This document shows, piece by piece, positions 47,609 to 57,013 of a stretch of DNA of 64,000 bases. Made by a program: the position numbers and the translations under genes. Each line of letters opens with the position of its first letter. Positions within the stretch are counted from its first letter, which is position 1. The DNA is from Ruminococcus sp. (lineage in GTDB: Bacteria; Bacillota; Clostridia; Oscillospirales; Acutalibacteraceae): assembly GCA_017457955.1 (NCBI GenBank), contig JAFTGL010000013.1:41155-105154 (forward strand), given 5' to 3'. Below the pieces are notes generated by a model. The model had not been told where the DNA came from. It saw only the letters and a list, made by a program, of their open reading frames with translations, and made no database searches.

Positions 47609-47833
47609 ATGGAAAAGAAGAATTTCACCGTCCTGATCATCCTGATAGCCTTGCTTGCCGTCAGTATCCTGCTGATGAGCATTTCCCTGCTTTTGTCCGA
47701 GCGCGTGTTCGGTCAGGTGTCGAGCTATATCGCCATCGCCTGCGTGGTCGTCACGCTGGTCGGCGTGGTAATCATCATCCGCATGAACCGCAAGAACAAG
47801 GGCAAGGATGATTTTGACGACCTTGACGAGTAA
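47609..47833 (+). CDS. small two-helix membrane protein
   Basis: A 74-residue protein of unknown function: two hydrophobic segments (~7-28 and ~38-58) followed by a basic RMNRKNKGK stretch and an acidic DDFDDLDE tail. It follows rsmA by 3 bases and shares its transcript. The last ~11 codons and stop are duplicated at 48257-48291, on the far side of the toxin-antitoxin locus. Confidence 0.65.
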   Translation: MEKKNFTVLIILIALLAVSILLMSISLLLSERVFGQVSSYIAIACVVVTLVGVVIIIRMNRKNKGKDDFDDLDE

Positions 47834-47897: not shown

Positions 47898-47926
47898 TTG
47901 ACTTTTTGAAAGATATTATATATAAT
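47898..47926 (+). promoter_or_regulatory. sigma-A-type promoter of antitoxin RNA 1
   Basis: TTGACT (47898-47903), a 17-base spacer and a perfect TATAAT (47921-47926). Confidence 0.8.
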
Positions 47927-47931
47927 GAAAC

Positions 47932-48012
47932 TACAGAGAACCGTTATAAGCGGTTAGCTCAAGAGATTATTTATGAAAATAACCGTCCAGTGCCAGTGGG
48001 CGGTTATTTTTT
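47932..48012 (+). ncRNA. candidate antitoxin RNA, locus 1
   Basis: A predicted ~80-nt RNA from the promoter at 47898-47926 to the stem AATAACCG / CGGTTATT followed by a T tract (47976-48012). It overlaps the last codons, stop and 3' end of the toxin mRNA made from the opposite strand. It contains no convincing reading frame. The boundaries are inferred. Confidence 0.7.
47976..48012. terminator. shared bidirectional terminator, toxin-antitoxin locus 1
   Basis: AAAATAACCG ... CGGTTATTTTTTT: the arms have A tracts on one side and T tracts on the other, so the hairpin can end both convergent transcripts. Confidence 0.8.
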
Positions 48013-48081
48013 TATGGCTTTTATAGCCTCAACTAAAGCGATAAGTACAAGTACCAACGCGATAGCTTCGGTCATGCCCAT
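48004..48081 (-). CDS. hydrophobic toxin peptide of a type I toxin-antitoxin locus
   Basis: A 25-residue peptide beginning MGMTEAIALVLV and ending EAIKAIKK: one membrane helix with a basic tail, as in small holin-like/Fst-like toxins. AGGAGGTGG lies 8 bases before the ATG at 48081. Its promoter is 95 bases upstream. The stop codon lies inside the shared terminator. It is too short for standard gene callers. Assignment rests on architecture and peptide type, not on a family match. Confidence 0.75.
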   Translation of the reverse strand: MGMTEAIALVLVLIALVEAIKAIKK

Positions 48082-48146
48082 ATGTACCACCTCCTGTCGC
48101 AAAACAAATTCAGCCAACGCTGTTAATTCGATTTATGCTCGGATGT

Positions 48147-48211
48147 GGCTAACCGCCTTAACTACCCTGTAGTTCCGAAAAAAGTATATCATAACAAAAC
48201 ATATGTGTCAA
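48147..48211 (-). promoter_or_regulatory. toxin 1 promoter and structured leader start
   Basis: On the minus strand TTGACA (48211-48206), a 17-base spacer and TATACT (48188-48183). The RNA would begin GGAACTACAGGGTAGTT, which folds into a 5' hairpin, then GGCGGTTAGCC. The antitoxin RNA side has the same motifs (AACTACAG, GCGGTTAGC). Confidence 0.75.
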
Positions 48212-48256
48212 TAAGCGGTGGAGTTCGGTTTGCCTAATGCTGTTGATACATCAAGC

Positions 48257-48291
48257 GCAAGGATGATTTTGACGACCTTGACGAGTAAAAA
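48257..48291 (+). repeat. 35-bp direct repeat, right copy
   Basis: A perfect copy of 47802-47836, carrying the last codons and stop of the small membrane protein gene but no gene body. Confidence 0.95.
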
Positions 48292-48573
48292 TATGAATCA
48301 ATGAATGACACATGAGCACTGCCGATCGCTCGGCAGTGCTTTTTTGCTTTATAAGAAACTGTTCGTTTCTTATAAGCAAAAAGATTTGTATGCCCTCCCA
48401 GTTTGCTGCTGACGCAGCAACGGGAGATGGCTATGCGAAATACGCGCGGAGCGCGATTTCTCGCTGTGGTTTTTTATCCGTACTCTGTTAACCATTAACC
48501 GAGATAGGAACCCCGTCATATTCCGTCCGCTCCGCGCATATACTCTATCAGCATGATAGAAGGAGCGAAAACT
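48292..48573 (+). other. terminator and hairpin-rich stretch before the SipL-like gene
   Basis: The stem AGCACTGCCG / CGGCAGTGCT followed by TTTTTTG (48315-48345) is a strong terminator, probably the original one of the rsmA operon. Further hairpins are TTATAAGAAAC / GTTTCTTATAA (48350-48377), GTTTGCTGC / GCAGCAAC inside CTCCC...GGGAG (48395-48425), and GCGAAATACGCGC / GCGCGATTTC near 48435-48462. No gene is seen. Confidence 0.6.
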
Positions 48574-56674: not shown

Positions 56675-56702
56675 TTGACATCCGCTTGAATTGTGCTATA
56701 AT
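56675..56702 (+). promoter_or_regulatory. sigma-A-type promoter of antitoxin RNA 2
   Basis: TTGACA (56675-56680), a 16-base spacer and TATAAT (56697-56702). Confidence 0.8.
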
Positions 56703-56708
56703 AAAGAT

Positions 56709-56797
56709 ACAAGGAGCTATCCGGTTAGAAGACGGTTAGCCTATAGCAATTTATTTTTCAAAATAACCGCTCAGTGGCTTTGGGCGGTTATTTTTTT
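56709..56797 (+). ncRNA. candidate antitoxin RNA, locus 2
   Basis: A predicted ~88-nt RNA starting at ACAAGGAGCTATCC and ending at the AAAATAACCGC ... GCGGTTATTTTTTT hairpin (56760-56797). It overlaps the end of the toxin mRNA from the other strand. Motifs CAAGGAGCTATCC and ACGGTTAGCC reappear near the start of the toxin mRNA (CAAGGAGCCATCC, GCGGTTTAGCC). Confidence 0.7.
56760..56797. terminator. shared bidirectional terminator, toxin-antitoxin locus 2
   Basis: AAAATAACCGC / GCGGTTATTTTTTT, nearly the same stem as at 47976-48012. Confidence 0.8.
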
Positions 56798-56853
56798 ACG
56801 GAAATAATGATACACAGTATCATCACTAATATGATGATCGTGGTATATTCCAT
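56788..56853 (-). CDS. hydrophobic toxin peptide of a second type I toxin-antitoxin locus
   Basis: A 21-residue peptide beginning MEYTTIIILVMIL and ending IISVKK: one membrane helix with a two-lysine tail. AAGGAGAGGGTGAT lies before the ATG at 56853. The stop is inside the shared terminator, as in locus 1 (48004-48081). The peptides have little sequence in common, but the layout of promoter, leader motifs, stop and terminator is the same. Confidence 0.72.
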   Translation of the reverse strand: MEYTTIIILVMILCIIISVKK

Positions 56854-56964
56854 AAGTATCACCCTCTCCTTAGACTCCCTTGTGGGTTTCTATGTGAACA
56901 GAGGGTTACATTCCCTCTGTAGTGACTTGCGTCTTAAGAGGGCTAAACCGCCTACCGTTTATGT

Positions 56965-57013
56965 GGATGGCTCCTTGCAAGATGATTTTACTAAACAAAC
57001 GGACGAATGTAAA
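56965..57013 (-). promoter_or_regulatory. toxin 2 promoter and start of leader
   Basis: On the minus strand TTTACA (57013-57008), a 17-base spacer and TAAAAT (56990-56985); the RNA would begin near TTGCAAGGAGCCATCC (56980-56965). Confidence 0.7.

Follow-up and report, generated by a model that had tools for sequence, protein, structure and literature searches.

Type I toxin-antitoxin systems, in which an antisense RNA controls the mRNA of a small peptide, provide the closest described parallels to the locus presented here; within the Clostridia, according to the part of a review used by us (PMC6563280), knowledge of them is restricted to Clostridioides difficile. The other papers cited below were also drawn upon in part. 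In the par/Fst system (enterococcal par of pAD1 and relatives) convergent promoters face a bidirectional terminator, the product is a small peptide, a 5' stem-loop masks the Shine-Dalgarno (SD) sequence, and the shared terminator hairpin is the site of first RNA contact (PMC7472228). TxpA/RatA and BsrG/SR4 display 3'-end pairing and a masked SD, and in bsrG/SR4 the 3'-end pairing leads to ribonuclease III (RNase III) cleavage (PMC6562991). The C. difficile pairs (CD2517.1-RCd8 and others) are convergent overlapping genes specifying a short hydrophobic peptide with a charged end (PMC6563280), and the hok/Sok and AapA/IsoA mRNAs undergo long-distance 5'-3' pairing (PMC6733600). We analysed a stretch of 64,000 nucleotides (the window) from contig JAFTGL010000013.1 (C13) of a Ruminococcus sp. 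genome of 1.83 Mb, 15 contigs and 74% completeness. At positions 47898-48211 it contains a locus, here called locus 1, which is probably a chromosomal type I toxin-antitoxin module. It belongs to a family in which the 5' leaders of the two RNAs are alike. The parts of locus 1 are:

47898-47926, plus strand: antitoxin promoter, TTGACT-N17-TATAAT, read in the sequence
47930-47961, plus strand: antitoxin leader with a hairpin, ACTACAGAG and GCGGTTAGC, from folding
47932-48015, plus strand: putative antitoxin RNA of about 83 nt (5' hairpin and terminator), from a covariance model match and folding, with presumed ends
47975-48014, both strands: bidirectional terminator hairpin, whose 3' arm contains the toxin stop and whose T tract contains the toxin Lys-Lys codons
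48004-48081, minus strand: toxin-like peptide gene of 25 amino acids, ATG at 48081 to stop, from the open reading frame (ORF) and coding selection
48095-48087, minus strand: SD AGGAGGTGG, predicted to pair with the leader segment just 3' of CGGUUAG
48147-48176, minus strand: toxin mRNA leader GGAACTACAGGGTAGTTAAGGCGGTTAGCC, the GGCGGTTA of which is complementary to TAACCGCC at the stop/terminator
48211-48183, minus strand: toxin promoter, TTGACA-N17-TATACT, read in the sequence
47884-47853, minus strand: second terminator-like hairpin, beyond the antitoxin promoter; such sites are enriched family-wide

The hydrophobic minus-strand peptide gene with its SD, the two facing promoters and the hairpin overlapping the peptide stop had all been proposed in the original prediction, and each can be read directly at locus 1. 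The peptide is MGMTEAIALVLVLIALVEAIKAIKK; a second in-frame ATG would give 23 residues. Its stop codon (48006-48004) sits in the 3' arm of the terminator, the arms of which (47976-47992 and 47994-48010) are 17 nt long and 88% matched. About 257 bp separate the -10 boxes of the facing promoters. Since promoter-like sites are near expectation (4 found versus 2.3 ± 1.4 expected in 2 kb), promoter matches alone mean little. The fold of the antitoxin RNA lies far outside shuffled sequences (z -6.1), and the covariance model described below matches locus 1 with 70.2 bits (E 2.5e-10), the locus being among the 45 sequences from which that model was built.

As in par, locus 1 has convergent promoters, a bidirectional terminator, a small peptide and a leader that is predicted to mask the SD; in the family as a whole the toxin-side promoter and T tract are the weaker ones. 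It differs in its repeats. In par these are direct (DRa/DRb), hence the RNAs are complementary, while here they are inverted in the DNA and both RNAs carry the same motifs. GCGGTTAGC at 47950-47958 and 48148-48156 is an exact inverted repeat, and a second common motif, AACTACAG, was found by eye at 47929-47936 (plus) and 48174-48167 (minus). Fst possesses a PXXXG(C) motif, which the locus 1 peptide lacks, as it does any proline. The stop codon of locus 1 is inside the terminator. The convergent overlapping genes and the short hydrophobic peptide with a charged end are also features of the C. difficile pairs, whose peptides have 34-59 residues (PMC6563280) against 25 at locus 1; this comparison is by description only. 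In the parts of PMC6563280 and PMC7699646 consulted, no mention of shared leaders in these pairs was found.

The 3'-end pairing and SD masking of TxpA/RatA and BsrG/SR4 are present here in sequence and prediction only. Locus 1 has no match to Hol_Tox (PF16935) or to the Rfam BsrG family; the latter appeared in three of ten relatives at sub-threshold scores (26-38 bits versus a cut-off of 55). The covariance model gave no credible match in the SPBc2 genome, which carries bsrG (best E 8.8), and no such leader repeat surrounded bsrG among the five of ten inverted pairs viewed. No Rfam 15 family exceeded its cut-off at locus 1, the ten relatives yielded nothing beyond the weak BsrG scores, and the matches at locus 1 at or beside it were far below theirs, the best (E 0.007) being frnS at 48235-48347. 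Having no direct repeats and no Fst peptide, and having failed the Hol_Tox and BsrG tests, locus 1 is a member of neither group by the features tested. The layout is par/Fst-like, and some of the family's peptides are TxpA/BsrG-like. The arrangement was not found in a search of open-licence papers judged on titles and the beginnings of abstracts.

The module family and its peptide gene

A covariance search for relatives had been suggested in the original prediction and was productive. The model (R1) was built from 45 sequences, partly taken from a pattern-selected set, and pairs the terminator only. Of 200 genomes belonging to the same family, 73 (the source genome among them) gave a match at E ≤0.01. 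In 18 of these 73 the best E is only 0.001-0.01, where the rough E-values of R1 allow for chance. Among good-quality genomes of that family, 57 of 157 carry the module at the same threshold, and 25 of 398 genomes of the phylum match at E ≤1e-4 (source genome again counted). A genome can carry as many as 19 copies, and some of these are tandem copies with a spacing of about 350 bp. The source genome has four strong copies: two in the window (locus 1 and locus 2), one on contig C10 and a fourth where C13 begins; full-length nhmmer matches within the window number two. An exact leader plus terminator pattern was found in at least 115 stretches of named genomes, with Lachnospiraceae, Oscillospiraceae, Sporomusa, Desulfosporosinus, Veillonellaceae, one Synergistaceae bin and others among the matches listed. 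Cultured strains of Roseburia, Coprococcus and Butyrivibrio are among the carriers. This pattern fixes CGGTTWGCC and the terminator, and loci so selected are biased towards it. Only the BLAST searches that used locus 1 had the toxin leader in their query. Peptide genes missed by annotation in rumen and gut bacteria, where little work has been done on type I systems, would be easier to find with a model of this kind.

From 433 nhmmer matches, 255 were full length. In the fetched sequence, 183 of these had a hydrophobic ORF with an SD on the opposite strand under our filters and 72 did not. The stop lay near the terminator in 179, of which 175 also had a long enough leader, and removal of near-duplicates left 139. 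For the leaders, 80 loci had parsable arms, 99 could be anchored and 92 entered the wobble test (59 and 72 used). Folding was applied to 134 loci, and 136 and 127 had enough flanking sequence for terminator counts. Near-duplicates (contigs present in two collections, tandem copies) were kept in the peptide counts and in the analysis of non-synonymous (pN) and synonymous (pS) differences. The layout of locus 1 recurs in some 250 fetched loci, and the convergent type I layout with a shared terminator is thus, as far as sequence comparison goes, borne out across relatives. That functionless motifs have merely fallen into line by chance, as the near-expected number of promoter-like sites alone would permit, can practically be dismissed in the face of these loci and of the coding constraint on the peptide.

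With the stop held fixed, 174 of 247 loci having enough sequence contain an intact peptide in the same frame, including the four of the source genome. The remainder comprises 31 without an open frame, 36 that are open with a poor start, SD or hydrophobicity, and six lacking a stop in the stem; seven of the 31 and three of the six still yield a peptide under the ORF filters, and L111, another of the 31, does by eye. A broken peptide frame beside a kept antitoxin, the observation named beforehand as speaking against a toxin-antitoxin module, was therefore confined to a minority, some 23-24 of the 247, in which the peptide looks broken or absent.

Judging by their substitution pattern, the family peptides are under purifying selection. 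With the last three codons excluded, 197 of the 198 pairs that overlap had a pN below pS, and the sums stood in a ratio of 0.31; for the locus 1 peptide against three relatives, pN is 0.29-0.36 and pS 0.53-0.93. The stop falls within the terminator stem in 171 of 179 loci, and the C-terminal residue is lysine or arginine in 178 of 179, because the T tract of the antitoxin reads as lysine codons and the TTA of the stem as a stop; both counts follow partly from the filter on stop position. The peptides are otherwise diverse: a scan of nine, locus 1 excluded, gave one Hol_Tox match that passes the cut-off (1.4e-8) and two weak ones. A conserved and selected gene would also be expected of a small membrane protein that is no toxin and is kept under antisense control, such as a modulator of stress or of the cell envelope. 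We consider this unlikely, as the multi-copy, tandem and sporadic distribution, and the loss of peptides beside retained antitoxins, fit addiction-type modules better.

Orphan antitoxins, with leader and terminator kept and the peptide absent by both methods, make up about 24 of the 247 loci.

Carriage by phages or plasmids was also considered. The exact pattern occurs in 22 viral contigs. The DNA of locus 1 has no match in annotated phages, and of three other peptides compared with phages two gave no match and one a weak match.

Leaders alike in both RNAs

That both RNAs carry the same motifs had been noticed at locus 1; it proved to be a co-varying, family-wide property and not a peculiarity of a single locus. 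Over the 139 non-redundant loci, leaders compared in the same sense score 24.5 within their own pair and 17.8 with those of other loci (z 27, 0 of 5000 permutations). Similarity in the complementary sense is slight (z 3, 14 of 5000). The 109 pattern-selected loci agree (cognate 21.1 versus 18.1, 0 of 2000). In the 99 anchored loci the likeness spans about eleven positions at the presumed transcript start, positions -45 to -15 being at background, and antitoxin/toxin identity pairs are among the strongest co-varying columns. The toxin anchor in this positional test was picked for best likeness, which slightly favours cognates; no such choice enters the 139-locus test. The likeness at locus 1 is imperfect, one of nine positions being different, and at locus 2 both leaders have AAGGAGCYATCC where locus 1 reads ACTACAGRG. 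The antitoxin leader folds with a minimum free energy of -11.0 versus -5.5 in mononucleotide shuffles (99 loci), and the hairpin of the toxin leader is weaker than that of the antitoxin leader.

Cognate leaders are more alike than non-cognate ones, unlike what drift after one old duplication would leave, so something is holding the two leaders of a locus together, as far as sequence comparison can tell. Template switching between the inverted repeats, which lie about 190-240 bp apart, could homogenise the leaders with no RNA function being involved, and it would suit the failure of pairing tests to identify a clear partner. On the other hand, the likeness ends near the presumed transcript start, and many loci show the same difference between their two leaders in the stretch separating the arms (AUAGAC versus GGUAGGC, by eye). 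We hold this explanation to be improbable. Complementarity is the expected basis of recognition between antisense partners. Here the 5' element changes from locus to locus, and many natural pairs keep it the same in both RNAs, which makes the specificity code of type I systems testable by comparison and by swaps.

Pairing, transcript ends and proposed working

In our proposal the minus-strand mRNA would encode a small membrane peptide, and the leader segment immediately downstream of the conserved GGCGGUUA is predicted to mask the SD of that mRNA. Of 134 folded mRNAs, 124 have an SD that is paired to 70% or more, versus 69 with shuffled leaders, and in 116 the predicted partner is the segment just 3' of the leader CGGU. 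The plus-strand RNA of about 83 nt would be the antitoxin, overlapping the 3' end of the mRNA through the shared two-way terminator, an overlap that allows duplex formation between the two RNAs. The analogy with TxpA/RatA and BsrG/SR4 suggests that the duplex would be subject to decay by RNase III and that the peptide would stay unmade.

A single shared terminator, as first proposed, tells part of the story. The two-way hairpin is present, and it is probably not the sole end on the toxin strand. Of 136 loci, 55 have toxin-strand terminators beyond the antitoxin promoter, and in 47 of these the other strand has none there; the expectation from shuffles is 8.4, and the count for the other side is 15 of 127. 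At this frequency, many loci, among them locus 1, could plausibly make a longer mRNA with full overlap. At locus 1, the second terminator-like hairpin beyond the plus promoter makes a minus transcript of about 330 nt possible besides the one of about 200 nt. Where the mRNA extends to the second terminator, the antisense duplex would be complete.

The inverted repeats may have another use, namely as arms of a structure closing the toxin mRNA from 5' to 3' in the manner of hok or AapA, with GGCGGUUA pairing to UAACCGCC and, in a read-through mRNA, the leader pairing with the complement of the antitoxin leader to give an inert form. Of 139 loci, 78 have all eight positions of GGCGGUUA complementary to UAACCGCC at the stop/terminator and 130 have seven or more; shuffled leaders reach these levels in 0.6% and 17%. 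Long-range pairing of at least 0.5 is predicted in 33 of 134 loci and in none of 134 with shuffled leaders; at locus 1 it reaches 0.95, while it is not predicted at the other three copies in the genome. The far terminators of 55 loci are in keeping with such read-through. In the 5' arm, antitoxin C opposite toxin U was seen 13 times and the reverse never (59 loci), as wobble pairing would allow. Against this, A/G differences in that arm have no clear bias (20:14) and the 3' arm has no C/U bias (48:43). Nor does a far terminator go with greater leader likeness (6.3, n=55, versus 7.2, n=81, in loci lacking one; p 0.24). The closing structure is a possibility that falls short of probable. Its read-through panhandle form predicted a rise of likeness with the far terminator, and this prediction failed.

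Returning to our proposal, the like 5' parts may, as their likeliest but weakly supported use, let the leaders exchange strands and so set which antitoxin meets which mRNA. In its full form this is a tentative reading: a large type I family, as yet without a name, whose partners would recognise each other by identity, a locus-specific 5' element co-evolves in both RNAs, the antitoxin mimics or exchanges strands with the mRNA leader, and the antitoxin terminator doubles as the Lys-Lys-stop codons of the toxin. Several results count against our proposal as a whole. Energies of 12-nt strand exchange are barely cognate-specific (z -1.1 and -2.3, 80 loci), the duplex energy of whole leaders reaches only z -3, and self-dimers of the 5' part are no stronger than in shuffles. 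Promoters with at least 9 of 12 matches were found on the toxin side in 67 of 99 loci versus 89 of 99 on the antitoxin side, where the mean at the corresponding place is 10.9 of 12. The T tract in the toxin direction is weak (mean 4.7 T of 8 versus 6.1), and the locus 1 peptide has no match in Pfam (E 1) or NCBIfam (E 10).

Three candidate causes of the likeness fared poorly in the tests. Pairing of the leader arms gives cognate energies little above those of shuffled pairs (80 loci), and self-dimers of the 5' part are not above shuffles. A partner for the variable 5' part near the toxin start or stop, or along the antitoxin, reached z ≤3.6, at the 5' part itself; a single scan value exceeded this (7.4), and it comes trivially from the strand opposite the antitoxin leader. 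None of the pairing models tested is clearly supported as an explanation of the leader likeness.

Site history and unusual copies

The surroundings of locus 1 and its paralogue in the window are:

47609-47833: upstream neighbour, membrane-protein-like gene of 74 amino acids
47797-47836: left copy of a 40-nt direct repeat (3' end of the 74-residue gene)
48252-48291: right copy of the 40-nt direct repeat
from 48553: downstream neighbour, SipL/SPOCS-LysM gene
56675-56990: locus 2, paralogous module, peptide on the minus strand ending at 56788, both leaders with AAGGAGCYATCC

The peptide of locus 2 has 21-24 residues, and its toxin promoter reads TTTACA-N17-TAAAAT by eye. The two 40-nt copies that flank locus 1 correspond to the 3' end of the 74-residue gene. 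By eye, two genomes of the same genus (L282, L283) have this gene followed by the SipL gene with the module absent, and a third (L284) has other sequence at the corresponding site. With a bracketing repeat and module-free relatives, locus 1 is probably a recent arrival, either by insertion or by duplication with partial loss. The C10 copy has an imperfect flanking repeat of about 71 nt. In L006, flanking direct repeats stand at about 784-855 and 1242-1312. Flanking repeats were recorded in 32 of 220 loci, two of which are indexing artefacts at contig ends and many of which are tandem arrays. Around isolated modules, flanking direct repeats could mark an insertion mechanism.

The copy at the start of C13 (L007, 1-420) has an intact peptide; by eye, no 5' part of the toxin leader or toxin promoter is recognisable, and it is possibly rearranged. 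L030 (CALXSR010000001.1) has a tandem pair of modules at 291-907, set among repeats resembling those of CRISPR (clustered regularly interspaced short palindromic repeats) arrays. By eye, a reversed repeat replaces the peptide gene in the first copy, and in the second a repeat stands between a start-less peptide remnant and the toxin leader. A regular run of the same CRISPR-like repeat occurs elsewhere in that genome, and the arrangement recalls CRISPR-regulated toxin pairs.
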